Part shown: one piece after another, positions 1 to 33,709 of the stretch
Layout of the letters: each line of letters opens with the position of its first letter
Position numbering within the stretch: position 1 is the first letter of the stretch
DNA from: Desulfitibacter sp. BRH_c19
GTDB taxonomy: Bacteria; Bacillota; DSM-16504; Desulfitibacterales; Desulfitibacteraceae
Assembly (NCBI GenBank): GCA_001515945.1
Contig: LOER01000008.1
Coordinates: forward strand, 1 to 34,042
Reading direction: 5' to 3'
DNA: 34,042 bases
Program-made: the position numbers and the translations under genes
Notes under the pieces: generated by a model
Told to the model about the DNA's origin: nothing
The model's input: the letters and a program-made list of their open reading frames with translations, nothing else
The model's database searches: none

Positions 1-62
1 GGGTGTAACCCGCGCCACGATAGGACGGAATTGTGAGCGCAGCGAGCAATTTCCGTCCTATC
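1..62. repeat. Right-hand end of a multi-hairpin repeat element
   Basis: These 62 bases are identical to 2576-2637, the right end of the complete element at 2450-2637. They contain a near-perfect hairpin (19-62: GATAGGACGGAAATT-like arms around GCGCAGCGAGC). The element is cut by the window edge. At base 62 it runs straight into the next cassette-type repeat, whose usual left box (TAACGTT) is missing, so the junction looks like a recombination product. Confidence 0.75.
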
Positions 63-220
63 GTCCTCGGCATTCCCGGCGTGTCCGTCCCACAAGGGCT
101 GGCGCAAGACTTGCTACCCCGACTACCATCCCCACATGCAAGTCTTGTGACAGAGGAGATGTGGGCGGCTCACCCCATAGACTTGCCCCACCGCCCCTTG
201 TGGGAATGCTCGTGTTATCC
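58..220 (-). repeat. attC-like cassette repeat, family B
   Basis: Imperfect palindrome of the 'ATTCCCGACGTGTCCG' family, also complete at 28208, 31790 and 33545. The right arm ends GGGAATGCTCGTGTTATCC. The inner arms GCAAGACTTGC / GCAAGTCTTG pair. The right terminal box is GTTATCC (214-220); the left terminal box has been replaced by the end of the neighbouring hairpin element. Read on the minus strand it lies 48 bp past the stop of the 269-715 gene, as an integron attC would. Confidence 0.7.
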
Positions 221-268: not shown

Positions 269-715
269 TCAAGACAACCGCAGATTTTTAAGTCCATTTT
301 TCTCAAATTCCTTGGCATATTTCTCTTTAAAATTCTCTAACTCATCGTGAATATCTTCAGCTTCGAAAATCAGTTTCATTATTTCAGGACCATATTTATG
401 TACAAGATCCCTCTCCGCTAGGCGTTCAATTAACTCGTCCCAAAAAGATTCTTCTTCGTATTCTTCGATATATTCCAAGGCCAGCGATTCATCTTCAAAC
501 TTCCTCGTAGCAAAGAACTCTCCATCTTTACCGTCTGGTTTAATAAGGTCATCTGCGCCAAACTCCTTAGCTAATGAAAACAACTTCTGCTCCAAATCCC
601 TATACTTTTTTGTTGCTACCCTATCTTCTGTGTAAAATCCATGCATAATCCAATCTGCAATATAAAGAATGTCAAGAAGAATTAAATATTCTTTATTAGT
701 AATATTTATTTTCAT
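269..715 (-). CDS. Hypothetical acidic helical protein, cassette gene
   Basis: A 148-residue protein of no family I recognise. It is rich in Glu, Asp and Lys and predicted mostly helical, with acidic runs around residues 80-95 (EYIEEYEEESFWDELIERL). No signal peptide or membrane segment is visible, so it is probably cytoplasmic. The ATG has a good ribosome-binding site (GGAGGT, about 8 bases upstream on the minus strand). It stands alone between two attC-like repeats, with the one at 58-220 just past its 3' end, so it looks like a single-gene cassette. Function unknown. Confidence 0.75.
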   Translation of the reverse strand: MKINITNKEYLILLDILYIADWIMHGFYTEDRVATKKYRDLEQKLFSLAKEFGADDLIKPDGKDGEFFATRKFEDESLALEYIEEYEEESFWDELIERLAERDLVHKYGPEIMKLIFEAEDIHDELENFKEKYAKEFEKNGLKNLRLS

Positions 716-1097
716 AAAAGTAGACCTCCATCTTAAATTGTTGTTCTTCCAAAAGAACTATTTATAACCCTAGAAGAGAAATTGATCCGAGGTTCGTCTT
801 TCAAACAGCACTTTACAGCTTAGCGGTTTTGGATAACGTTCCCGGGATTTGCGAACTTGGCGGTTGGCATAACTTTTGCTCTCAAAAGTCTACCCACTAT
901 TAGCAAAAGGCATGACAATCGTCAAGTTAGGTCGAAGGCGCAGCCGAAGCCGCAAATCCTCGTGTTATGTAACGTGGGAGGTCCCGCCTGTTCAGAGGTC
1001 GACAGGACGTCGACCCCTTAAACCCCAAACATGCTACCTATTACATAAACATTAAAGATAATGCTGCTTATTTTTTATCACTGTTTAGGCATTTGAT
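716..1097. other. Intergenic stretch with one cassette repeat
   Basis: The only structure I see here is the attC-like repeat at 831-970. The segment just before it (817-830, TAGCGGTTTTG) recurs before the repeat fragment at 7628. The remaining bases, 971-1097, show nothing recognisable. Confidence 0.5.
831..970 (-). repeat. attC-like cassette repeat, family A
   Basis: Starts GGATAAC (831-837) and ends GTTATGT (964-970). Inside, GGATTTGCG (845-853) pairs with CGCAAATCC (951-959), then AACTTGGCGGTTGGCAT pairs imperfectly with ATGACAATCGTCAAGTT. A bulge of about 20 bases (AGGTCGAAGGCGCAGCCG...) sits only on the right arm, so the element has a direction. Same family and direction as 1576, 29954 and 32821. 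Confidence 0.8.
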
Positions 1098-1445
1098 TTA
1101 CACAATATTTTCCCCAAGCAAGATTTTAGGCATGATTGTCAAACAGCGATTCCATCTTTTGTAAAATTTTTCTAATCCAAGTTTTGAAACCGTTGCATGT
1201 GCTTCTTCATTTTCAACCACCCAATATAGCATATAGGTAACTTTGCCCACGTAGCGTGTTAACTTAATGGGGGGTTCACCTGATTTTACTGCATTAAAGT
1301 CTTTTTGCCGATGGGTTCTCTTGATATATTTTACATCAATAACACCTTGCTGTTCTTTATAAAATACAGCTACCTCTTTCATAAGTTCTTCAACTTCATC
1401 TTGCTTGTCAAGTTTTACTTCATATATACAAATCTCATTAAACAT
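1098..1445 (-). CDS. Hypothetical protein, possible dimeric alpha-beta barrel
   Basis: 115 residues if started at the ATG at 1445, which has a strong GGAGG site about 9 bases upstream; a longer frame to 1529 has no such signal. The layout resembles small dimeric alpha/beta-barrel proteins such as antibiotic-biosynthesis monooxygenase-like folds: a beta strand (residues 2-10, EICIYEVKL), a helix (VEELMKEVAVFYKEQ), a strand around VIDVKYIKR, and a strand VTYMLYWVVEN followed by a helix. That is only a fold guess. No catalytic motif is evident. It lies between attC-like repeats at 831-970 and 1576-1718, as one cassette. Confidence 0.65.
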   Translation of the reverse strand: MFNEICIYEVKLDKQDEVEELMKEVAVFYKEQQGVIDVKYIKRTHRQKDFNAVKSGEPPIKLTRYVGKVTYMLYWVVENEEAHATVSKLGLEKFYKRWNRCLTIMPKILLGENIV

Positions 1446-1575
1446 ATAAATAACCTCCGCAGCCAAGATATAAAATCTAAAAATTCGCAATAACGTACTT
1501 GCACATAATAGAAAAACCCCTAAAATCACACATATATACCCCGCCGCAGGACGCGGCGGACTTGCCTCCCATGTT

Positions 1576-1718
1576 ATATAACGTTCCCGGGATTTGTGAA
1601 CTTGGCGGTTGGCTTGACTTTTGCCCTCAAAAGCCTACCCCTCAATTAGCAAAAGGCATGACAACTGTCAAGTTAGGTCGGAGGCGCCAAGCCGGAGCTG
1701 CAAATCCTCGTGTTAGCC
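1576..1718 (-). repeat. attC-like cassette repeat, family A
   Basis: Left box ATATAAC (1576-1582) followed by GTTCCCGGGATTTGTGAACTTGG. The right arm ends GCAAATCCTCGTGTTAGCC (box 1712-1718). Closely related to 831-970 and 32821-32959 and in the same direction. It lies directly upstream of the HigBA promoter, so the toxin-antitoxin cassette is transcribed against the array direction. Confidence 0.8.
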
Positions 1719-1780: not shown

Positions 1781-2143
1781 GTGATAAAAGTGTATTTAGT
1801 TGAGTATTATACAGAAATAGGTAAATCTCCTGTTTTTGATTTTGTTTGTAGTCTTAGCAGTAAAGAGCAGGCTAAAGTATTAAGAGAAATTGATTTGCTC
1901 TCCGAGTTTGGTTTTACACTTGGTCTACCCCACATAAGAAGTATTAAAGCTGCTGATGGGTTATGGGAACTAAGGATAAAGCATAGTTCTAATAACTTCC
2001 GAATTCTATATTTTCATTATTCTAAAGGAAGATTTGTCCTCCTGCATGCTTTTAGAAAAACTACTGATAAAACTCCTAAGAAGGATATTAATATTGCTTT
2101 GAAGAGAATGAAAAACTATCTCCAAAGGAGTGACCAAACATGA
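1781..2143 (+). CDS. higB: HigB-like toxin (RelE/Gp49 superfamily mRNA endonuclease)
   Basis: 120 residues starting at GTG. It matches the phage Gp49-like HigB family: a core with LGLPHIRSI, then GLWELRIKHSSNNFRILYF, then RFVLLHAFRKTTDKTPKKDI and a C-terminal helix with alternating Lys/Arg. Such toxins cleave mRNA on the ribosome and are held inactive by the HTH antitoxin. The antitoxin start codon overlaps the toxin stop (ATGA at 2140-2143). The toxin-first order is typical of HigBA. It reads on the plus strand, against the surrounding cassette genes, and has its own promoter. Confidence 0.88.
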   Translation: MIKVYLVEYYTEIGKSPVFDFVCSLSSKEQAKVLREIDLLSEFGFTLGLPHIRSIKAADGLWELRIKHSSNNFRILYFHYSKGRFVLLHAFRKTTDKTPKKDINIALKRMKNYLQRSDQT

Positions 2144-2409
2144 ACCACGAAGAAGTAAAAGCTAAATTGTTACAATGCCCGGAAGTTAAAGAAGAATATG
2201 ATAGATTAAAACCTCTTTATGATATCAAAAAAGAGCTAATTAAGTTTCGGATTGAACAAGGCTTAAGTCAAAAACAACTAGCTGATAAAATTGGAACAAA
2301 ACAATCTGCAATTTCTCGTTTAGAAAGCGGCGAGTATAATGCAAGCGTTGAATTATTACACAAAATAGCACACGCCTTGGGCAAGGAACTTCAGATTAAA
2401 TTCAATTAA
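2140..2409 (+). CDS. higA: HigA-like antitoxin, XRE family HTH
   Basis: 89 residues. The C-terminal half is a classic XRE/Cro-type helix-turn-helix: FRIEQGLSQKQLADKIGTK then QSAISRLESGEYNAS and a closing helix. The N-terminal 35 residues probably wrap the toxin. It neutralises HigB and most likely represses the operon through the palindrome at 1743-1764. The ribosome-binding site (AAAGGAG) lies inside the end of higB, consistent with coupled translation. An intrinsic terminator follows directly. Confidence 0.9.
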   Translation: MNHEEVKAKLLQCPEVKEEYDRLKPLYDIKKELIKFRIEQGLSQKQLADKIGTKQSAISRLESGEYNASVELLHKIAHALGKELQIKFN

Positions 2410-2449: not shown

Positions 2450-2637
2450 GGCTAACGTGGCGCGGGTTTGCGAAGTTGCTTTGGAGGACAAGGGTTTTCT
2501 TGTCCGGAAAAGCAATTTTGCAAACCTGCTGATAGGCGATGTTGGGAGCGCTTTAGCGCGAACCCGCCTATCAGCGGGTGTAACCCGCGCCACGATAGGA
2601 CGGAATTGTGAGCGCAGCGAGCAATTTCCGTCCTATC
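2450..2637 (-). repeat. Multi-hairpin repeat element, attC-like but unusual
   Basis: It starts with GGCTAAC. An outer stem pairs GTGGCGCGGGTT (2457-2468) with AACCCGCGCCAC (2582-2593). Inside are two further hairpins: TTTGCGAAGTTGCTTT / AAAAGCAATTTTGCAAA with an ACAAG/CTTGT tip, and CTGATAGGCG / CGCCTATCAG with a GCGC tip. A fourth hairpin follows (2594-2637, GATAGGACGG / CCGTCCTATC). The right terminal box, if present, is the degenerate GATAGGA. A second copy ends at base 62. It could be a long variant cassette site or a separate structured element. Confidence 0.65.
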
Positions 2638-2727: not shown

Positions 2728-3795
2728 TTATTTATTTACAATTCGATCTAATGGACTCTTTATTCTGCTTATACTAGCCTGTGTTACATGTGTATAAATC
2801 TCTGTGGTTTTTGAGCTGCTATGTCCCAATAACTCCTGTATATATCTTAAATCGGTACCCTCCTCCAGTAAATGTGTTGCAAAAGAGTGCCTCAAGGAAT
2901 GTACCGTCACATTCTTTGACATATTCGCTTCTTGACATGCATTATAAAAAACTTTTTGCACAGCACGTTCCGTCAAAAACCTTCCATCTTTTCCTCCTGG
3001 AAAAAGCCAACCCTTTGGTTTTTCCATTCTTACATATTCCCTTAATATATCAAGTGTTAATCCAGATAAGAGAGTATATCTATCCTTTCTTCCTTTTCCT
3101 TGCCGAACATGGATCAACATCCTTTGGCTATCAATATCATTAATTTTTAACCGCACAACCTCACCTACACGCAGACCAGCAGAATATACGAGATACAGAA
3201 TAGCTTTATGCTTCAGGTTCGAAATTGAGCTCAGTATTGCCAAAACTTCATCCTGGCTTAAAATGATAGGCAACTTCTTCTCTTTTTTAGGACGGGGAAT
3301 TTCATAGATAATTCTTTCTTTATTTAGTACATATGTAAGTAAAAACTTAATTGCACTTAGCGATTGGTTAACATATGCATGAGAATTCCCATTTAATAAA
3401 AGAATTATATATTCTTCGACATCTTCTTGAGAAATTAGTTCGGCTTTCTTGTTATTATTATCTAAGAAGCGTCTACTGTGACCAATATACGCTTTTATTG
3501 TTTTGGTACTATACCCTTTCATTTTCAGCAATTTATCCATCTTGTCTAAAGTATCGTCATGACTTGTCCATACATTTCGGTAAGAGGATAAAATGCTATT
3601 TAGTTCATCGTAACAAATAACTTCTTCTTTCTCAAAAAGCTTAACGATTTGCTTTATTGTTTCGATATTATGGGGAATAATCCAATACTTATTTTCTGGA
3701 TCCCACTTTCGTCCATCAATTCTTCTAACTATATCCACCTTTTCTTTTGAATAATCAAATGATACAGCAATTTCCTCCCTGCCAATCATTTTCAC
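2728..3795 (-). CDS. Tyrosine recombinase, integron-integrase-like, lacking the IntI insert
   Basis: 355 residues from a GTG start; an ATG two codons later, preceded by GAGGTG, is equally possible. The catalytic set is complete: Arg209 (SAGLRVGE), Lys234 (GKGRKDR), His299 and Arg302 (HSLRHSFATHLL), His325 (LLGHSS) and Tyr334 (TEIYTHV). The C-terminus SPLDRIV resembles IntI and XerC/D proteins. Residues about 8-45 (FDYSKEKV...GRKWDPENKYWIIP) form an extra N-terminal module before the SAM-like core-binding domain (about 80-165). The stretch between Lys234 and His299 is short, so the extra helix segment specific to canonical IntI is absent. It probably acts on the flanking attC-like repeats. It points the same way as the cassettes. 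Confidence 0.92.
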   Translation of the reverse strand: MKMIGREEIAVSFDYSKEKVDIVRRIDGRKWDPENKYWIIPHNIETIKQIVKLFEKEEVICYDELNSILSSYRNVWTSHDDTLDKMDKLLKMKGYSTKTIKAYIGHSRRFLDNNNKKAELISQEDVEEYIILLLNGNSHAYVNQSLSAIKFLLTYVLNKERIIYEIPRPKKEKKLPIILSQDEVLAILSSISNLKHKAILYLVYSAGLRVGEVVRLKINDIDSQRMLIHVRQGKGRKDRYTLLSGLTLDILREYVRMEKPKGWLFPGGKDGRFLTERAVQKVFYNACQEANMSKNVTVHSLRHSFATHLLEEGTDLRYIQELLGHSSSKTTEIYTHVTQASISRIKSPLDRIVNK

Positions 3796-4021
3796 CTCTA
3801 TCCCAAGACAAAAATCCTCCTTTTTATTGAAATGTAAGATTTATCTGTCCAATATATCCAAAATTAATAATATTTGCATTTACTTCTACATTTAGTTTGC
3901 ATTACCTTCCAAAACAATACATTTTTTTACATTATTTCCGTGTCATTTCCATCTACAGTAAATCTTTCATTATTAAATCCAACTAATGATTTCTTACCCT
4001 GCAAATTAAGCTGATGGAAAA
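3796..4021. other. Upstream region of the recombinase gene, conserved in a second copy
   Basis: The block 3862-3960 recurs at about 13535-13620. It carries two TTTGCATT motifs about 25 bp apart and an ACATTTTTTTACATTATTTCC tract. Conservation next to both recombinase copies suggests promoter or recombinase-binding function. The AAGGAGG at about 3813-3819 is too far (about 20 bases) from the GTG to be its ribosome-binding site. No gene is visible. Confidence 0.5.
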
Positions 4022-4192
4022 ATTCTCAGCCAATCTTTGTTAGGCTGAGAACCTTTCATGTTTTAACTATAAAAACTAAATAGCAACCGATAACAGATCA
4101 GAAAGTTCATGAGGAGTTTCCAAATTTTCAACTGATAAGATTTTTCTAAGTCTAGTGGGAATGCTTGAGAAAATGTTCGTTAGGCAGGAAGC
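4022..4192 (+). other. Decayed cobalamin riboswitch with its preceding terminator
   Basis: Homologous to 13954-14200 upstream of bzaA. A terminator-like hairpin TTCTCAGCC / GGCTGAGAA (4022-4052) comes first, then TTTTAACTATAAAAACTAAATAG and ATAACAG. Next is GAGGAGTTT and the matching TAAGTCTAGTGGGAATGCTTG. Last is a damaged B12 box, GTTAGGCAGGAAGC instead of GTTAGCCAGGAGACCTGCC. About 80 bases of the aptamer core, including CCACTGTA, are missing, so it cannot bind cobalamin normally. No bza gene follows it. Confidence 0.75.
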
Positions 4193-4431
4193 AAAATTAT
4201 AAAATCGAGGATTATGGGAATGGAATAATTAGCAGTATGAACCTTGGACAGTAGAAGTGATTATTGTACATATTTTCCTTGCTATTGTTAAAGTTATAAA
4301 TATGTTATATCTATCTACTGCAGGTATAAATCTAAAAATCAAAAATGAATGAACAGATAAAGCGCCTCTACTAACAGAGACAAATAGTGCAGCAAACCCC
4401 ACTAAGCATTAGCTAAAGATTTTCTAGTCTA
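4193..4431. other. Non-coding stretch, nothing recognised
   Basis: No convincing frame or repeat. CCCACT (4399-4404) and AGTGGG (4434-4439) could form a weak hairpin beyond the end of the next gene, without a convincing U-tract. Confidence 0.3.
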
Positions 4432-4773
4432 TCAGTGGGATCTTTTAGGTGTTAGGAAAAGTGCACCAATATATAAAAGGGTAAGTATAATACTTATAGT
4501 AAATGAATAATCATAAATTCTTTTAAACAATTCTAAACTCCAACCATCTTCGCCAATAATATAATAAGCAAATTTACTATGTAACCCTATCCCATCGTTT
4601 AATACTGGAATAGCGCCCGCAACATAGTTTGTCCCCAAGTCAAATGCCACTAAATAACTCGTCAAAACTAAAGGTAGCAAGGCATTTGAAAATCTAAAAC
4701 GATCACTCATTCTCCTTCTTAAACAAATTACAAATATCATCCAAACTACAAGAACAATACTAACAAATATCAC
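4432..4773 (-). CDS. Small integral membrane protein, unknown function
   Basis: 113 residues from a GTG start with a good GAGGTGA site 7 bases upstream. There are three likely membrane segments: residues 2-18 (FVSIVLVVWMIFVICL), about 31-55 and about 91-108 (FTISIILTLLYIGALFL). A basic loop (RRRMSDR) follows the first, favouring an N-out orientation. I recognise no family. It stands near the lipoprotein gene on the same strand with about 95 bp between, possibly one small transcription unit. Confidence 0.65.
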   Translation of the reverse strand: MIFVSIVLVVWMIFVICLRRRMSDRFRFSNALLPLVLTSYLVAFDLGTNYVAGAIPVLNDGIGLHSKFAYYIIGEDGWSLELFKRIYDYSFTISIILTLLYIGALFLTPKRSH

Positions 4774-8636: not shown

Positions 8637-8750
8637 AGAAATAACTCCTCCCTAAGCTTACTACTCAAATCTATCCTCCATACTATACCATTACAAAACA
8701 AATCCGTCTTGTACTTTTTTATGTCTATACATTAACTTTCTACTCTACTT

Positions 8751-8838
8751 CGCTGACTTTTGTCTATACTTAAAACAGTACGTTACCGTAATGCCTCCAA
8801 GACTCGATACGAGGCGGTTGGCTAGTCCATACCTCGGC
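8751..8838 (-). repeat. Inverted copy of an 80-90 bp element
   Basis: The reverse complement of about 29228-29317: GCCGAGGTATGGACTAGCC... to ...CATTACGGTAACGTACTG, then TTTTAAG and a diverged AGACA.AAAGT.AGCGA tail. The similarity is high over about 75 bases. At the other copy it directly follows a reverse transcriptase scrap, so it may derive from a retroelement. Identity unknown. Confidence 0.65.
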
Positions 8839-8988
8839 AGGATCCTCCCCTGCTAGAATGTGCAATCTGCCAGGACGCACCGGGAAATACAATCTCCCTT
8901 CTCCTATTATAGAAGTAAATATGTAAAAAAGAATCATAGAGATAATTCCTAAAACTGAACCTTCCACAAGGAAGAAATCTAATAACAT
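8770..8988 (-). pseudogene. Truncated small membrane protein gene fused to the inverted element
   Basis: The frame starts at an ATG with a good GGGAGAAAG site. The first 30 residues or so look like a real membrane N-terminus (FFLVEGSVLGIISMILFYIF). The rest (RPGRLHILAGEDPAEVW...RHYGNVLF) is encoded by the repeated element at 8751-8838 and its extension. This is most simply a gene cut short by insertion of mobile-element debris. A second copy of the tail is at 29228-29317. Confidence 0.5.
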
Positions 8989-9345: not shown

Positions 9346-9466
9346 TATCTATCGCCTCCTAATTAATTATATGTTTGTTACTCGTCATATTCCACAAATA
9401 TAGATAGCCATAATGCCTATTCTCAAGAAAATCAGACCATGGAGCACGACCTTCCGTGTACAGTTT

Positions 9467-9535
9467 CAGATAATGTTTCTGGTATTCCCGACGTGTCCGT
9501 TCCGCTAGAACTGGCGCAAGGCTTGCCCGCTAGGT
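9467..9535 (-). repeat. Truncated family B attC-like repeat
   Basis: CAGATAATGTTTCTGGTATTCCCGACGTGTCC continues to GCTAGAACTGGCGCAAGGCTTGCC. This is the left half of the family seen complete at 31790-31955. The right half is missing. Confidence 0.65.
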
Positions 9536-11231: not shown

Positions 11232-11300
11232 GCCTAACGTTCCCGTGATTTGCGGACTTGGCAGTTGGCGCAATTTTTGACCCCAAACACTTCTACTTCT
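11232..11300 (-). repeat. Truncated family A attC-like repeat
   Basis: GCCTAACGTTCCCGTGATTTG then CGGACTTGGCAGTTGGCGC matches the left half of 29954-30090 closely, including GACCCCAAA. The right half is replaced by unrelated AT-rich DNA. It lies about 90 bp past the end of the lysE-like gene. Confidence 0.7.
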
Positions 11301-12229: not shown

Positions 12230-12422
12230 CAGCTAACGGTTTGAATTGCCGACGACGTCAAAGCTCACAGGGAAGTGCTCGTGCCCTGCGGGACTTCGCG
12301 GGCTAATGCACCGACCGACTCGGTTGCTTTGACGATGTGGCACGGCTTTCTCCATGCTCATTCTTCGTAGCCCTACTTAATGCATTACCCTACCGTGCCC
12401 TTGTGGCAATGCGTTGTTATCG
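12230..12422 (-). repeat. attC-like cassette repeat, long variant
   Basis: Left box CAGCTAAC (12230-12237) then GGTTTGAATTGCCGACGACGTC. The right arm ends GGCAATGCGTTGTTATCG (box 12416-12422). TTGAATTGCC pairs with GGCAATGCG and the inner arms CGACGTCAAAG / CTTTGACGATG pair. Other hairpins lie within (GTGCTCGTGCCCTGCGGGAC). It shares the CCGACGACGT core with the other families. It lies about 125 bp past the end of the GNAT gene. Confidence 0.7.
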
Positions 12423-13175: not shown

Positions 13176-13252
13176 CGATAACGTTCAGAGGGTTTGCGAC
13201 GTCGGATTAATACATTCATATTGGCCCCGATGTCGCAAACCCTCTGTTATCT
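13176..13252 (-). repeat. Compact attC-like cassette repeat
   Basis: The shortest and cleanest site: box CGATAAC (13176-13182), arms AGAGGGTTTGCGACGTCGG and CCGATGTCGCAAACCCTCT around a loop of about 20 bases, box GTTATCT (13246-13252). GTTC is unpaired only on the left, giving direction. The GGGTTTGCGACGT core links the TTTGCGAA and CCCGACGT families. It is the last repeat before the recombinase remnant. Confidence 0.8.
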
Positions 13253-13335: not shown

Positions 13336-13508
13336 CTCCTGTATATATCTTAAATCAGTACCTCCCTCCAGTAGGTGCGTAGCAAAAGAGTGTCTTAAGG
13401 AATGTACAGTCACATTTTTTGAAATCTTCACTTCTTGACATATATTGTGAAAAAATTTTTGCACAGCACGTTCCGTCAAAAAGCTTCCATTTTTTCCACC
13501 TGGTAGGA
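13336..13508 (-). pseudogene. Recombinase remnant, residues about 265-321 only
   Basis: It aligns without gaps to 2833-3003 of the intact recombinase. The translated frame stays open: LPGGKNGSFLTERAVQKFF, then KNVTVHSLRHSFATHLLEGG, then TDLRYIQE. The HxxR motif is kept, but the Tyr end, the Arg box and the whole N-terminal half are gone. Amino-acid changes are few and conservative (GRFL to GSFL, VFYNAC to FFHNIC), so the gene diverged while still functional and was later gutted. Upstream it joins the recombinase promoter region directly. Confidence 0.85.
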
Positions 13509-13534
13509 CCTATCTACCAGGTGCTATGAAAAAT

Positions 13535-13620
13535 GATAATATTTGCATTACTTCTACATTTAATTTGCATTACCCTCCAAATCAATACATTTTTTTACAT
13601 TATTTCCTTTGTATTTCCTT
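13535..13620. other. Second copy of the recombinase upstream block
   Basis: AATATTTGCATTACTTCTAC, then ATTTAATTTGCATTACC and ACATTTTTTTACATTATTTCC match 3862-3960. The two TTTGCATT motifs are kept at almost the same spacing. It lies between the recombinase remnant and the bza promoter. Confidence 0.7.
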
Positions 13621-13661
13621 CTCCAGCAAATTTTTTATACTATATTCCACATAATTATTGC

Positions 13662-13690
13662 TTGACATTTCCAGTTGAGGAAATTAGAAT
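13662..13690 (+). promoter_or_regulatory. Sigma-A type promoter of the bza operon
   Basis: A consensus -35 TTGACA (13662-13667), a 17-base spacer and a -10 TAGAAT (13685-13690). A transcript from about 13697 would include both riboswitches. No second promoter is evident between them. Confidence 0.8.
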
Positions 13691-13716
13691 GTTGAGTAAG
13701 TTAATAAACTGCTAAG

Positions 13717-13900
13717 TGCAGATAGGTGCCTCGAGGTTCGAGGTCAAAAGGGAATTGGGTTCAAGTCCCAAACGGTCCCGCCACTGTAACCGGAGAGTTG
13801 CTTTACAGATATCCACTGTTCTTCAATCCCACTGGGAAAAGGAGGATGGGAAGGAGTAAAGTCGCTGTGAGACGGAAGTCAGGAAACCTGCCTATTTGCA
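13717..13900 (+). ncRNA. Cobalamin riboswitch 1 (first of a tandem pair)
   Basis: P1 closes TGCAGATAGG (13717-13726) with CCTATTTGCA (13891-13900). Conserved core elements: GGTGCC, AAAAGGGAA, CGGTCCCGCCACTGTAACCGG, the TGGGAAGG-type junction, GTGAGACGGAAGTCAGG and the B12 box AGTCAGGAAACCTGCCT (13877-13893). When cobalamin binds, the terminator at 13951-13998 should form. GAGAAC (13940-13945) can pair with GTTCTC (13954-13959) as a plausible antiterminator. Confidence 0.95.
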
Positions 13901-13950
13901 AAAGGAAAGTCTCTCGGGGATATAGAGACTATAGAATTGAGAACAATGGT

Positions 13951-13998
13951 AAAGTTCTCAGCCAAAGTTTTATTTTGGCTGAGAACTTTTTATTTTTT
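13951..13998 (+). terminator. Expression-platform terminator of riboswitch 1
   Basis: A 16-bp perfect stem, AAAGTTCTCAGCCAAA with TTTGGCTGAGAACTTT, 7-base loop, then TTTATTTTTT. Confidence 0.92.
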
Positions 13999-14017
13999 AA
14001 CTAAAACTAAATAGTAA

Positions 14018-14207
14018 GGTAACAGGTCCCCTAATGGGGATAATAGGGAAGCCCGTGGGGAATTGTTAAGAATTGTTCCTGAAACGGTGCGGACCCACCA
14101 CTGTAGTCGAGGAGTTTCTCAAATTGTCCACTGCTGGCAGTTGTATAAGTCTAGTGGGAAGGCTTGAGAAAATGATGATTCGTTAGCCAGGAGACCTGCC
14201 TGTTATC
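14018..14207 (+). ncRNA. Cobalamin riboswitch 2 (second of a tandem pair)
   Basis: P1 pairs GGTAACAGG (14018-14026) with CCTGTTATC (14199-14207). The core has ATAGGGAAGCC, CGGTGCGGACCCACCACTGTAG, CTAGTGGGAAGG and the B12 box AGCCAGGAGACCTGCCT (14185-14201). The sequence differs from riboswitch 1 throughout the peripheral stems, so the two are old paralogues or of separate origin. The decayed copy at 4081-4192 is most like this one. Confidence 0.93.
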
Positions 14208-14230
14208 TCGTATTCTTGTTGGATGATGGT

Positions 14231-19198: not shown

Positions 19199-20737
19199 AT
19201 GCTTAAGTATGACCCCCAAAGCTCTGGTCCCCAGTATCTAGAAAATCTAGCTACCGGGTACTGGTTTTCAGAGGCACTATTTACAGCAATCGAACTGGAT
19301 ATTTTTTCTCTTCTTGATCCCCATGGGAAAAATACAGTTGAAATTGCCAAACAACTAGATTGTGAGTCTAAAGCACTTGAACGGTATCTATATGCGCTAT
19401 GCTCTCTAGGTCTGTTGAGTCAATTCGATAATATCTTTTTTAATACAAAGATTTCTTCTGAGTACCTTGTCAAAGGAAAAGAATACTACCAAGGGGATTC
19501 CATTCTTTGGCGTAAATACTTAACAGGTCATTGGCAGGGTCTTAGAAAGTGTATAGAAGCAGGTGGAAAGATTGATCTCTCCTCACCCCAATCTAATTCC
19601 AATGATTTAGCATCACGAATCAGAAAGTATATAAATGCCATGGATAATGTTGCCAGGATAAAGGTTAATGAAATTGTACCCATCTTTAAGGGTCTTCCCC
19701 TAAGTGGTAATATTTTGGATATAGGTGCAGGCTCAGGGGCTATTTCTGCAGGCTTTTTAAAAGAATTCCCGGATATGGAAGCTACCCTTGTGGATATTTC
19801 CCAGGTTTTGGACTATACAAAAGAACTCATGACAAGCCGGGAATTTACTGAAAATATTTCTTATTGTGAGACAAATATTCTAGAAAATTGGCATCTTAAA
19901 AAGGGTCAATATGATTTGGTTGTCCTCTCAAACATTGTTCATGCTTATTCAGAAAAAGAAATACAGCATATTTTAAAATGTTCTGTAAAATGTCTGAAAG
20001 CAGATGGCTTCCTGTTGGTACATGATTTCTTTTTGGAACACTTTCCTGAAAAGGCTACACTTTTTGATCTAAACATGCTTATCAATACATACAATGGTAA
20101 GGTTTTTGAGGGAAGTTGGCTTAGGCAGCAGGTAAGAAATTGTGGTCTTCATGCTTCCAACCTTATTTCACTAGAGACAGATACTGCTGTAATTATTGCA
20201 TCAGATAATAAGGAGAACTTGGAAAACCTTTGCTTAGATAAAACATCTGGTTTGATTAAGGAAATAGAGGGTCTGGGATTTAAGGAAGTCTATTCAGTTC
20301 CTATAGAATCCATTCATGTTCCTGACTGGACCCCTGTACACTGCCAGTTTGGATGTAAAAGCTTTGGAAAGCTTAGCTGTCCTCCTAATAGTCCATCTCC
20401 TGAAGAAACTAGAAATGTACTTAAGGATTATAGTCTGGCACTACTTCTGGAGGGGGAGCCTCCTACCAATAGCTTTCAAAAACTTGTTTTGCAAGCTGAA
20501 AAGAAAGCATTCAAGACTGGTTATTATAAAGCTTTTGCTTACTGGGCAGGGCCGTGTACACTTTGTGAAAACTGCAATACCCAGGGGCAATGCTTCAGAC
20601 CTGAAGATACTAGACCATCAATGGAAGGTGCAGGTATAGATGTCTTTGAAACAGTTAAGCGTGCAGAAATAGCACTACAAACCTTGAACAGTAAAAGTGA
20701 TTATTGTAAGTATTTTGCATTACTACTATTGGAGTGA
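19199..20737 (+). CDS. bzaC: BzaC-like O-methyltransferase fused to a DUF2284 domain
   Basis: 512 residues, started at the ATG at 19199 (AAAGGGG upstream). Residues about 10-95 are a winged-helix dimerisation domain and about 110-325 a class I SAM methyltransferase of the plant-OMT/acetylserotonin type: NILDIGAGSGAIS (about 170-182), LVDIS, and YDLVVLSNIVHAYSEKE. BzaC methylates 5-hydroxybenzimidazole to 5-methoxybenzimidazole. Residues about 350-512 are a DUF2284-like, probably metal-binding, domain with Cys382, 386 and 394 (CQFGCKSFGKLSC) and Cys453, 456, 459 and 465 (CTLCENCNTQGQC). The purpose of this domain is unknown. The last codons overlap the next gene's ribosome-binding region. Confidence 0.88.
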   Translation: MLKYDPQSSGPQYLENLATGYWFSEALFTAIELDIFSLLDPHGKNTVEIAKQLDCESKALERYLYALCSLGLLSQFDNIFFNTKISSEYLVKGKEYYQGDSILWRKYLTGHWQGLRKCIEAGGKIDLSSPQSNSNDLASRIRKYINAMDNVARIKVNEIVPIFKGLPLSGNILDIGAGSGAISAGFLKEFPDMEATLVDISQVLDYTKELMTSREFTENISYCETNILENWHLKKGQYDLVVLSNIVHAYSEKEIQHILKCSVKCLKADGFLLVHDFFLEHFPEKATLFDLNMLINTYNGKVFEGSWLRQQVRNCGLHASNLISLETDTAVIIASDNKENLENLCLDKTSGLIKEIEGLGFKEVYSVPIESIHVPDWTPVHCQFGCKSFGKLSCPPNSPSPEETRNVLKDYSLALLLEGEPPTNSFQKLVLQAEKKAFKTGYYKAFAYWAGPCTLCENCNTQGQCFRPEDTRPSMEGAGIDVFETVKRAEIALQTLNSKSDYCKYFALLLLE

Positions 20738-26751: not shown

Positions 26752-26790
26752 CGAATCGCAGCTGGAGCTGCAAATCCACGTGGTTATGTT
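26752..26790 (-). repeat. Truncated family A attC-like repeat, right end
   Basis: GAATCGCAGCTGGAGCTG then CAAATCCACGTGGTTATGTT matches the right arm of 1576-1718 (GCCGGAGCTGCAAATCCTCGTGTTAG). Confidence 0.5.
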
Positions 26791-26865
26791 ATGTCCACAC
26801 TTTCAAGAAAACTTAACCGAATTTTCCTAGTCCCCTTAGGGAACATTATCCTTGAGGTGAGATAA

Positions 26866-27306: not shown

Positions 27307-27375
27307 GGATATGTGGTGCGGCAACCCCTAAAACTAGCCCCACCGCCCCTTGTGGGAATGCTCGCGTTATACGAT
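27300..27375 (-). repeat. Truncated family B attC-like repeat, right half
   Basis: GATATGTGGTGCGGCAACCCC, then CCCCACCGCCCCTTGTGGGAATGCTCGCGTTATACGATGCCGCGG, matches 160-230 closely (same GATGCCGCGG flank). The left half is replaced by the transposase-like scrap. It lies past the 3' end of the 27549-28073 gene. Confidence 0.7.
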
Positions 27376-27548
27376 GCCGCGGTTGAGACCAGCTTGTAAT
27401 GCCTCAGAATGTAAGCACTTGAGTATGCTGCACATTTACCTGGCGGTTGGTCTTCATATCGATTTAATGCTAATAAAGTACCTATAAAGTGTCTTAACTT
27501 TATAAGTATGAACCTAGGATAATGCTCATTATATATAATTGTGATAGC

Positions 27549-28207: not shown

Positions 28208-28375
28208 ACTCTAACGTCTCAGTATTACCGCGTACCCGTCCCGTAGGGCTGGTGTAAGACTTGCCTACTACGGCTACCATCCCAAATTGGCAGGTCTTGT
28301 GATAGAAGACATGTGGTGCGGCCTACTCTAGAGCTTTACCCCACCGCACCTTTACGGGAAAGCTCGTATTATACG
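28208..28375 (-). repeat. attC-like cassette repeat, family B
   Basis: Left box ACTCTAAC (28208-28215) then GTCTCAGTATTACCGCG. The right arm ends GGGAAAGCTCGTATTATAC, where the last box is ATTATAC instead of GTTATAC (28368-28374). Inner arms: AAGACTTGCC / GGCAGGTCTT. Same direction as the others. It lies directly upstream of the MazEF-like promoter. Confidence 0.75.
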
Positions 28376-29162: not shown

Positions 29163-29228
29163 TATATAGTTGAAGCAGACATCCATGGCTTTTTCGACCA
29201 TGTGGACCACGAGTGGCTAATGAAAATG
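29163..29228 (+). pseudogene. Scrap of a group II intron-type reverse transcriptase
   Basis: The frame reads YIVEADIHGFFDHVDHEW, then LMKM. This is the first catalytic-Asp region of group II intron-encoded reverse transcriptases (VEADIKGFFDNVDHEWLM in many intact copies). Nothing else of the protein is present; it runs into the repeated element at 29228. Confidence 0.75.
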
Positions 29229-29317
29229 CCGAGGTAAGGACTAGCCATCCGCCTCGTATCGAGTCTTGGAGGCATTACGGTAACGTAGTGTTTTAAGCGT
29301 AGACAGAAAGTTAGCGA
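29228..29317 (+). repeat. 80-90 bp element, inverted relative to 8751-8838
   Basis: GCCGAGGTAAGGACTAGCC to GGCATTACGGTAACGTAGTG, TTTTAAG, AGACAGAAAGTTAGCGAGG. The copy at 8751-8838 is its reverse complement with few changes. It directly follows the RT scrap and directly precedes a broken antitoxin gene, so it probably marks insertion debris. Confidence 0.65.
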
Positions 29318-29330
29318 GGTAGAATCGACT

Positions 29331-29953: not shown

Positions 29954-30090
29954 GTCTAACGTTCCCGTGATTTGCGAACTTGGTAGTTGGCGCGATTTTT
30001 AACCCCAAAGTCTCGCCTACTTCAAAAATCATGACAATTACCAAGTTAGGTCGAAAGCGAAAGCCGGAGCCGCAAATCATCGTGTTAGGC
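29954..30090 (-). repeat. attC-like cassette repeat, family A, canonical terminal boxes
   Basis: GTCTAAC (29954-29960) and GTTAGGC (30084-30090) fit the integron RYYYAAC / GTTRRRY consensus. GTGATTTGCG pairs with CGCAAATCAT, and AACTTGGTAGTTG with CAATTACCAAGTT. The AGGTCGAAAGCGAAAGCCGGAGC bulge is on the right arm only. The minus-strand gene at 30085-30915 ends inside the right box. Confidence 0.85.
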
Positions 30091-31035: not shown

Positions 31036-31425
31036 CTATGAAACATCAAACTTTAATGTCAATTCTTTTAAGTTTATAATTGCTCTGGCTTCCATCAGCA
31101 AATCTAGTCCTAGCAACCCATTTATCTCACCTTTCGGATCAATAACACCAAAATCTAGCTTAAAATCTCTCAAATTTACGTTTCCAAAATTCACTTGATC
31201 AATTCGTTTTGAAAAGAAATAATGTAGACTTCCTCCAACACCATAAAATGATTTTATTTCATCCTTTAATTCAGCTACAATACCAAGATCTTCAACAATA
31301 TCAGGAGAAATAAGTGTTTCAACTGCACCAGTATCTATAACAATATTCTCAATAACTTTTACTACTCCACAATGTGTTATTTCTATTGAACTATATAGTA
31401 ATCCATCATGTAATCGTAGTTTCAT
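31036..31425 (-). CDS. Retropepsin-like aspartic protease
   Basis: 129 residues. IENIVIDTGAVETLISPDIV carries the Asp-Thr-Gly active site (about residues 31-33) of single-domain retroviral-type aspartic proteases. GLLGLDLLMEARAIINLKEL is the matching C-terminal psi-loop region. A homodimer would be needed for activity. The ribosome-binding site AGAGGT is inside the preceding gene, whose end overlaps by 20 bases, so the two work as a pair. Substrate unknown. Confidence 0.85.
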   Translation of the reverse strand: MKLRLHDGLLYSSIEITHCGVVKVIENIVIDTGAVETLISPDIVEDLGIVAELKDEIKSFYGVGGSLHYFFSKRIDQVNFGNVNLRDFKLDFGVIDPKGEINGLLGLDLLMEARAIINLKELTLKFDVS

Positions 31426-31669
31426 TACTCATACCTCTATAACCAAAAATATTCTTGATCTCAATTTCAATCTTTTCATTTCCTGTATGATAAACTATTA
31501 TGTCATCTTTAGATCTTACAAGTTCCCTTGTTGCTACTCTATTGTCATCAAATGATTCAATAACAGCCATGTCTTCAATTAATCTTTTAGTGCCTTTGAT
31601 TTTTGACTTTAATATTTGAAGTTTAACAAATCGGTTTGGATAAATCTTTCTAACTTCTTCCCATTTCAT
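31406..31669 (-). CDS. Hypothetical partner of the aspartic protease
   Basis: 87 residues with GAGGTG before the ATG. It starts MKWEEVRKIYPNRFVKLQIL and is mostly alternating beta/charged sequence (DNRVATRELVRSKDDIIVYH). No known motif. The 20-base overlap with the protease gene suggests coupled translation and a shared role, such as a substrate or inhibitor, but that is inference. Confidence 0.7.
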   Translation of the reverse strand: MKWEEVRKIYPNRFVKLQILKSKIKGTKRLIEDMAVIESFDDNRVATRELVRSKDDIIVYHTGNEKIEIEIKNIFGYRGMSNETTIT

Positions 31670-31789: not shown

Positions 31790-31955
31790 ATATAACGTTC
31801 TCGGCATTCCCGACGTGTCCGTCCCGCTAGGGCTGGCGCAAGACTTGCACATCCTAATAGCAAGACCTAATTGCAAGTCTTGCGACAGAGGACATGTGGG
31901 CGGCCCACCCCAAAGCTCACCCCACCGCACCCTTGCGGGAAAGCTCGTGTTATCT
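31790..31955 (-). repeat. attC-like cassette repeat, family B
   Basis: Box ATATAAC (31790-31796), then GTTCTCGGCATTCCCGACG. The right arm ends GCGGGAAAGCTCGTGTTATCT (box 31949-31955). Inner arms: GCGCAAGACTTGC / GCAAGTCTTGCG. The best example of family B. It starts 15 bp past the stop of the lipoprotein gene on the minus strand. Confidence 0.82.
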
Positions 31956-31970
31956 GAAGTAGCAACACTC

Positions 31971-32777
31971 TTAATCATAACCACTTACATGTGCCGGTAG
32001 TTTTTTGAACTCTTCTTTCAACTCTACAATATATACTATAAAATAGATTAAGTCTCTAAGCATTTCTTCCTCTATAGTTTCTGTTATAACTGGGGTATCC
32101 CAATATACTTCCTTTTTATTCCCATCCATCTCTATTATTAATTCATAGGTTGAATTTGGAAACCCCACTTTTTTTACAAGATGCGGTTCAAGAGGTTCAA
32201 AATTGTTAGGATAACTAAATATATCAACCTCTAGCATCTTTTCATAAATTTCTCTCATCTCACTTTTATCTAGAGTCATTTTTATGGTAATAGTACCTGC
32301 ATCAACTAAGTCCTTTATATATGTATTTTCAAATGTATTTAAAACATTTCTACCTTTAACTCCATATCTTAATAAAAAGTTAAAGTCTTTAGGCAGATCG
32401 TTATTTTTATTTTCATTAGTTTCTAACACTTTTATTTGTTTTGCTATAGGCCATCTATCGATTACAGATTTTCCATCTTCTTCTGAAAGCCATATTTCTA
32501 CAACTTCACTATATCTTAAATTAGTTGATTTAATTCTCTTACCTTCTTTGCCAATTATTATTGTATCATTAGACACTTTGATACCTTCAGCTTTAAGTAG
32601 TTGATTAGTCTCAGTAATTTCTCTAGGTAAATATACAAGGAGATACTCATCCGTTTCACCAAATGCAATTATTTTATCTCTTAAATCAGGGTTTGTAGTC
32701 TCTATTTTTGTTGTCATGCAACTAATGAACAAAAAAGATAGCAACACAATAATAGTCATGAAAACAAATCTATTCAT
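31971..32777 (-). CDS. Predicted lipoprotein, cassette gene
   Basis: 268 residues, started at the ATG at 32777 (GAGGAG upstream); the frame extends a further 7 codons. Signal peptide NRFVFMTIIVLLSFLFIS-C with the lipid-attached Cys at residue 20, then a mature region with no recognised domain. It contains repeated charged beta-type stretches and a C-terminal helix (EEEMLRDLIYFIVYIVELKEE). It should sit on the outer face of the membrane. The attC-like repeat follows at once. Confidence 0.72.
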   Translation of the reverse strand: MNRFVFMTIIVLLSFLFISCMTTKIETTNPDLRDKIIAFGETDEYLLVYLPREITETNQLLKAEGIKVSNDTIIIGKEGKRIKSTNLRYSEVVEIWLSEEDGKSVIDRWPIAKQIKVLETNENKNNDLPKDFNFLLRYGVKGRNVLNTFENTYIKDLVDAGTITIKMTLDKSEMREIYEKMLEVDIFSYPNNFEPLEPHLVKKVGFPNSTYELIIEMDGNKKEVYWDTPVITETIEEEMLRDLIYFIVYIVELKEEFKKLPAHVSGYD

Positions 32778-32820
32778 AATAATAACTCCTCGTAGCAAAT
32801 TTACTCGGCAAAGCTATTTC

Positions 32821-32959
32821 AGATAACGTTCCCGGGATTTGCGAACTTGGCGGTTGGCATGACTTTTGCCCCAAAAGCCTATCCTCCAGAAGCAAAAGGC
32901 ATGACAACTGTCAAGTTAGGTCGTAGGCGCAGCCGGAGCCGCAAATCCTCGTGTTAACT
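32821..32959 (-). repeat. attC-like cassette repeat, family A
   Basis: AGATAAC (32821-32827), then GTTCCCGGGATTTGCGAACT. The right arm ends GCAAATCCTCGTGTTAACT (box 32953-32959). Inner GGCATGACTTTTGCC / GGCAAAAG-type arms differ from 831-970 only slightly. It follows the 33032-33506 gene on the minus strand. Confidence 0.82.
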
Positions 32960-33544: not shown

Positions 33545-33709
33545 CTTTAACGTTCCGAGTGTTACCGACGTATCCGTCCCGCAGGGCTGACGCAAAGCTT
33601 GCTCATTCATTTCACCTTATATATTGCAAGCTTTGTGACAGAGGGTATGTGGTGCGGCTTGCCCCAGAGCTTGTCTACACCGCACCCTTGCGGTAAAACT
33701 CTGTTATAT
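33545..33709 (-). repeat. attC-like cassette repeat, family B
   Basis: CTTTAAC (33545-33551), then GTTCCGAGTGTTACCGACGT. The right arm ends TGCGGTAAAACTCTGTTATAT (box 33703-33709). Inner arms AAAGCTTGC / GCAAGCTTT pair. It lies about 56 bp past the end of the partial gene at the window edge. Confidence 0.78.

Follow-up and report, generated by a model that had tools for sequence, protein, structure and literature searches.

Insert-less tyrosine recombinases with a HARP-like N-terminal module as candidate integrases of a distinct class of chromosomal integrons

Introduction

The accepted definition of the integron integrase (IntI) demands a characteristic insert, which IntegronFinder also includes in its search key (PMC9668308); the insertion has been called not fully conserved yet essential (Smyshlyaev 2021, PMC8138268). 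Only a single complete integron each is on record for Firmicutes and for Bacteroidetes proper (PMC9024848), and integrase-less clusters of attC sites are common, archaea included (PMC9668308). In spirochaetes, integrons in the 'reverse' orientation are known, and those of Treponema have been described with true IntI (PMC9668308). Among protein families, NF040815 (recomb_XerA_Arch) mixes archaeal Xer proteins with the proteins considered here and is silent on HARP and on attC arrays; its name, 'site-specific tyrosine recombinase/integron integrase', indicates that the group has been recognized in part. Integron integrases with a HARP domain did not turn up in a search of the literature from which preprints and subscription papers were absent.

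Here we analyze a recombinase gene and its surroundings in the window, that is, the whole stretch of 34,042 nucleotides of contig LOER01000008.1 from Desulfitibacter sp. BRH_c19, together with homologous loci from other prokaryotes.

Results and Discussion

A tyrosine recombinase that lacks the IntI insert

The 355-residue product of the open reading frame, which starts with GTG, contains the complete set of tyrosine recombinase catalytic residues announced in a preliminary description of this DNA (R209, K234, H299, R302, H325, and Y334) and matches PF00589 with an E-value of 2.2e-40. The short path between K234 and H299, on which that description had based the absence of the IntI insert, was borne out: the two residues are 65 positions apart, vs. 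107 between the aligned K160 and H267 of IntI4/VchIntIA (2a3v), the phmmer alignment to 2a3v splits into two stretches precisely at this gap, and the match to TIGR02249 likewise falls into two pieces at the insert site. The same spacing is 61–69 in every measurable homologue; by this measure, the IntI-specific insert around patch III is absent from the recombinase and from all homologues measured. Because it is insert-less, the protein is not an IntI under the accepted definition.

The protein shares with classical IntI (IntI1, IntI2, VchIntIA/IntI4) the core-binding and catalytic fold as well as the SPLD-type end, and the PDB fold closest to its AlphaFold model (mean pLDDT 90.6) is that of IntI4 (2a3v; Foldseek, E 1.5e-16). 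Nevertheless, its TIGR02249 score of 212.8 lies below the cut-off of 265. The scores against XerC (186), XerD (182), and XerA (NF040815; 215.8, just below the cut-off of 220) also fall short of the respective family cut-offs, whereas all 54 aligned members of the group match NF040815. In a phylogenetic tree obtained by a quick search, with moderate support, six IntI proteins form a single branch (SH-aLRT 98) and the window protein falls outside it, within the clade of module-bearing proteins described below. Module-less integrases associated with IS91 elements are nested inside this clade in the same quick tree, and where a member with an array seems to be without the module, the usual cause is a frame change ahead of the module or a truncation of the gene product.

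The N-terminal module is HARP-like

The additional N-terminal module that had been noticed in this protein proved to be real and conserved, but its extent had to be redrawn, from residues 8–45 to a domain that reaches about residue 54 and is modeled by AlphaFold as a beta-alpha-beta-beta-alpha fold. Its motif, R-W-x6-W-x-x-P, includes two tryptophans that are almost invariant in an alignment of 37 proteins (W31 and W38, more than 90% invariant across 54 proteins). Overall, the module is highly divergent, at 13–36% identity to the window copy. The HARP profile (PF07443) matches 22 of the 37 module sequences at E-values up to 10, the best being 5.5e-9; the window module on its own yields 0.0025, which is under the gathering score. 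Conversely, the module profile retrieves the HARP domain of SMARCAL1 (PDB 4o66; E 3.4e-6) as the sole credible solved structure. Since a Foldseek search with the module alone placed SMARCAL1 HARP at rank 3 with a non-significant E-value of 0.53, we classify the module as HARP-like on the strength of sequence profiles, the likeness being one of profile similarity to the N-terminal 50 residues of the recombinase.

In SMARCAL1, an animal annealing helicase, HARP is a DNA-structure-recognition domain, whereas here the domain is fused to a recombinase. The HARP-like character of the module makes it plausible that it supplies the recognition of folded DNA for which classical integrases employ the IntI insert, a function to which we assign slightly less than an even chance.

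Cassette arrays in the window

The array reported next to the recombinase gene was confirmed: the window contains at least 11 complete or near-complete attC-like hairpins, every one of which shares the minus strand with the integrase gene (Table 1). These sites, which comprise repeat families A and B along with single sites, are 71–190 nt long, have ends of the form TAACA..ACGTTA, and, as single strands, fold with z-scores of −5 to −9 relative to shuffled sequences. Within the genome, most attC-like repeats cluster on the contig of the window and on several others, namely C1, C2, C3, C6, C16, C20, and C34. Read along the minus strand, the integrase gene is followed by an attC (2544–2453), a toxin-antitoxin cassette, an attC (1715–1579), an ORF, an attC (967–834), an ORF, an attC (217–59), and the contig end. 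A second array is headed by a broken integrase gene (13527–13336) and continues with an attC (13249–13179), a GNAT gene, an attC (12419–12233), and a LysE gene. The locus displays an attC array with R''-L''-L'-R' hairpins and intervening cassettes. For true neighbors in the window, a cassette's leader pairs with the R'' of the attC belonging to that cassette at 8–10 of 10 positions (two of these pairs were recomputed by eye, the scripted ends being a few bases off), and the R' flank of the attC nearest the integrase, GTTAGCCG, pairs at 9 of 10 positions with the R'' of the next attC. Cassettes are shared with arrays of other genera: the Gp49/HTH pair has a 64% identical counterpart in an array of genome G054, and gene pairs homologous to the retropepsin-type cassette occur twice in the G054 arrays and also in a Paenibacillus array (L060).

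Table 1. Features of the recombinase locus and its arrays (window coordinates unless a locus is named)
Feature	Coordinates	Strand	Basis
Insert-less, HARP-bearing integron-type tyrosine recombinase, 355 aa	2728..3795	-	ORF, Pfam Phage_integrase and SAM_4, R-K-H-R-H-Y
HARP-like N-terminal module, residues about 8–54	3634..3774	-	PF07443, 4o66 profile match, model
Core-binding (SAM-like) domain, residues 83–160	3316..3549	-	PF13495
Catalytic domain without IntI insert, residues 179–339	2779..3261	-	PF00589, K-H spacing
attC-like site nearest integrase	2453..2544	-	folded DNA z −6.6
Cassette, Gp49/HTH toxin-antitoxin pair	1781..2409	+	Pfam
attC-like site, type A	1579..1715	-	repeat family; R'/R'' complementarity to neighbors 9/10 and 9/10
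Cassette ORF between two attC sites, no Pfam match	1098..1529	-	ORF
attC-like site, type A	834..967	-	folded DNA z −5.2
Cassette ORF between two attC sites, no Pfam match	269..715	-	ORF
attC-like site, type B, R' end replaced by inverted repeat	59..217	-	83% to 31793 copy
Half attC-like site, type B	9466..9526	-	repeat family
Half attC-like site, type A	11235..11287	-	repeat family
attC-like site of upstream array	12233..12419	-	sequence; R'' TCCGATAAC vs. leader GTTATCGGA from 13179
attC-like site, type C, near-perfect hairpin	13179..13249	-	folded DNA z −9.0
Remnant of second integrase gene, 75% identical, with stop	13336..13527	-	
Half attC-like site, type A	26760..26793	-	repeat family
Half attC-like site, type B	27307..27414	-	repeat family
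attC-like site, type B	28212..28372	-	78%
attC-like site, type A	29957..30087	-	repeat family
Cassette, two-gene pair, second a retropepsin-like protease	31036..31669	-	Pfam
attC-like site, type B	31793..31952	-	R'' vs. leader from 32824 complementary 10/10
Cassette ORF between two attC sites	31971..32798	-	ORF
attC-like site, type A	32824..32956	-	repeat family
attC-like site, type B	33548..33706	-	74%; leader vs. R'' of 32824 complementary 8/10
tet(X) cassette evidence	L195:130-1490, L196:2640-2860, L144:2980-5060, L197:2651-2680		

Arrays beside homologous integrases

The set of homologues comprised 80 named loci, about 60 of which encode the module; these come from Bacillota, Bacteroidota, Spirochaetota, Nitrospirota, Nitrospinota, Aminicenantes, WOR-3, Gemmatimonadota, Altarchaeota, Undinarchaeota, and Micrarchaeota (the phylum labels of metagenome-assembled genomes being taken as given). 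Homologues devoid of nearby repeats had been named as the observation that would speak against a role of the enzyme in cassette movement; repeats are present at most loci with enough downstream sequence. Specifically, 23 of the module loci offer 5 kb or more of downstream sequence. Two or more attC-like hairpins occur at 14 of them, and three or more at 13; the clusters invariably lie 3' of the integrase gene, whereas none of 15 clean control regions contains three or more. Several further loci meant as controls (L162, L165, L166, and L168) were excluded from the clean set because they themselves contain arrays or pieces of integrase genes. The remaining nine module loci showed no cluster, a count in which divergent or missed sites and empty integrons are not told apart. 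An even draw of 299 Bacillota genomes contained a full-length module-bearing integrase in 13, including that of the window, and a canonical IntI in one; all three further loci from this draw with at least 5 kb downstream carry arrays, which are also found in G054, G008, and G042, the last with two attC-like sites. Contigs end within 2.5 kb of the integrase gene on the downstream side at 42 of the 80 loci and on the upstream side at 8, as would be expected if repeat arrays caused such ends. The integrase gene of G054 has a single in-frame TAG within the module (a pseudogene or recoding; L010/L185), and a pair of 182-nt repeats adjoins that of G014.

These counts depend on a hairpin scan that allows an unpaired spacer, without which nearly all sites are missed. 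The score of a single hairpin was discarded as an attC detector, given that shuffled sequence scores alike and only clusters with similar ends separate from it; a loose genome-wide pattern, AACA..CGTTR, was likewise abandoned after controls scored higher.

Cassette exchange at G^TTRRRY with a circle carrying an attC would leave complementarity between the R' flank of one site and the R'' flank of the next, and this trace is present in the 19 arrays compared: each attC has an R'' arm that can pair with the R' flank at the start of the cassette to which this attC belongs, with 5.26 of 7 positions matching between neighbors vs. 3.27 of 7 otherwise. The neighbor sum of 358 exceeds the maximum of 303 reached by permutation (0 of 5000 as high; z about 8). 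Judged by this signature, the arrays beside the homologues are true cassette arrays. In the 12-attC array of Flavobacterium terrisoli, 30 cells changed on both sides of the hairpin, a number equaled in none of 500 shuffles, and structures slid out of register collapse; this covariation indicates that the attC hairpins are maintained. Furthermore, five Paenibacillus species share a common sequence from the integrase stop codon to GATGTTA, after which different first cassettes follow; we identify this conserved region, ending at GTTA, as an attI, with its GTT crossover point adjoining the integrase gene.

The case for a distinct integrase class and its alternatives

Given the association of gene and array, we infer that this protein would catalyze cassette exchange; what the DNA itself displays is the missing insert, the array next to the gene, its cassette signature, and, in relatives, the boundary of the attI. 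The earlier premise that an insert-less enzyme moves the cassettes is accordingly well supported by association: arrays occur across phyla and in archaea, an attI adjoins the gene in relatives, and IntI is usually absent. The product of the gene is very probably an integron integrase, and the chromosomal integron that it serves would form a class of its own, with cassettes recombined via folded attC. Under the mechanism that we envisage, an Xer/IntI-type tyrosine recombinase with the HARP-like module would act like IntI, recombining folded attC hairpins, attC with attC and attC with attI, at G^TTRRRY, and each cassette thereby excised or inserted would have the form TTRRRY - gene - R''..hairpin..G. 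Classical integrons share the attC arrays, the attI, the G^TTRRRY crossover, and the type of cargo; in contrast, their IntI has the insert and forms a separate branch of the tree, and the window integrase differs in reading toward its array, the proposed layout running in one direction from integrase through attI to cassettes. Integrase and cassettes likewise share one direction in the reverse integrons of the spirochaete Treponema, which are described as carrying a true IntI. We infer that the enzymes described here, although they fail the insert test of IntI, would be integron integrases in function and a sister group in 'reverse' orientation. Members of this group seem to operate arrays of gene cassettes not only in Gram-positive bacteria but also in Bacteroidota and archaea.

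It could be argued that the arrays are CALINs built or moved by a classical IntI, in trans or formerly, and that the neighboring recombinase is an Xer-like bystander. IntI1 is indeed known to act on attC sites of foreign origin, among them those of archaea (PMC9668308), and two metagenome-assembled genomes with arrays do possess a canonical IntI. However, the genome of the window has no TIGR02249 match above the cut-off and canonical IntI is missing from 18 of 20 other array-bearing genomes; moreover, the arrays lie always on the 3' side of the integrase gene, an attI is conserved beside it in Paenibacillus, and the hosts include Bacillota, which are nearly without canonical IntI. We consider this scenario very improbable. 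Even less credence, next to none, is due to the notion that the repeats are REP-like or transposon palindromes and that the recombinase works for a transposon or resolves chromosome dimers. Some copies in the window are decayed halves, and a related integrase of the same genome is located within an IS91-type element, but REP elements lack the R'/R'' complementarity of cassette units, the attI boundary, and cassette-type cargo common to several genera; for dimer resolution, two Xer candidates (L003 and L004) are encoded elsewhere in the genome.

A serious contender concerns the module rather than the enzyme. The protein could be an integron integrase whose core alone handles folded attC, with the module involved in regulation, attI binding, oligomerization, or replication-fork targeting, a possibility that we rate appreciable but below one-half. 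The nesting of module-less members within the clade and the high divergence of the module are in line with such accessory roles, whereas several of the apparently module-less proteins with arrays are truncated or have the module in another frame, and the IS91-linked module-less integrases (L027, L028, and L029) have no arrays, small as these numbers are. HARP-bearing insert-less integrases are a widespread and little-noticed group of predicted gene-capturing integrases.

A link to tet(X)

A search of plasmid proteins led to the recombinase encoded beside tet(X3), a form of the tigecycline-resistance gene tet(X). Within the clade, this 'xerD' ('xerD/TnpF') is nested in the Bacteroidota part, and it is truncated and lacks the module; so far, it has been described as a recombinase of the chromosome-segregation type, and whether it takes part in tet(X) movement has been left open in the resistance literature (PMC7473080). 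The tet(X) gene is followed by an attC of the type found in the HARP-integrase arrays. In Empedobacter falsenii, GTTATGTGCC precedes tet(X), and an attC follows, its R'' GGCACATAAC starting directly after the gene and its end being AAACGTTA. From this leader and the attC after the gene, tet(X) can be recognized as having the form of a gene cassette of the HARP-integrase type, which bears on the role of the neighboring 'xerD' in tet(X) movement. In Proteus, the same attC runs into estT, the next cassette, and in the tet(X4) locus of Escherichia coli the site is severed right after R''.

Because the insert is held to be essential and is built into the search key, an integrase class of this kind would escape IntegronFinder. 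Such a missed class would explain why complete integrons are scarce in Firmicutes and Bacteroidetes alongside frequent integrase-less attC clusters, and the HARP fusion provides a direct, testable idea of the way in which a recombinase could locate single-stranded DNA in its folded state. In its broadest form, namely that these enzymes are a second, cross-domain class of integron integrases that would read folded single-stranded attC by means of a HARP-like domain instead of the IntI insert, account for many CALINs outside Proteobacteria, and be the source of the tet(X) cassette, the proposal is a tentative one, which we would expect to fail somewhat more readily than to hold.

Additional features of the window and the genome

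The 3' part of the integrase gene and its upstream region are duplicated (13336–13663 and 2833–3995), and a third integrase remnant lies on contig C40 (157–387). At 13707–14217, two tandem cobalamin riboswitches (Rfam) precede thiC-like (bza-type) genes and more vitamin B12 genes. Upstream of the intact integrase gene (4121–4276) there are decayed pieces of a cobalamin riboswitch and of a gene at 20667–20716, so the bza-linked platform may have been duplicated long ago. The 62 nt at 1–62 recur without change at 2576–2637; they include a perfect inverted repeat of considerable length (GATAGGACGGAAATTGCTCGC..) and took the place of the R' end in the attC at 59–217. Fragments matching a group II intron (RF02005) within the arrays, at 29223–29326 on the plus strand and 8741–8846 on the minus strand, may be relics of group IIC introns that target attC sites. 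On contig C1 (L002) of the same genome, the related module-less integrase gene adjoins the transposase gene of its IS91-type element, and the contig also bears an attC-like site at 4634–4762.
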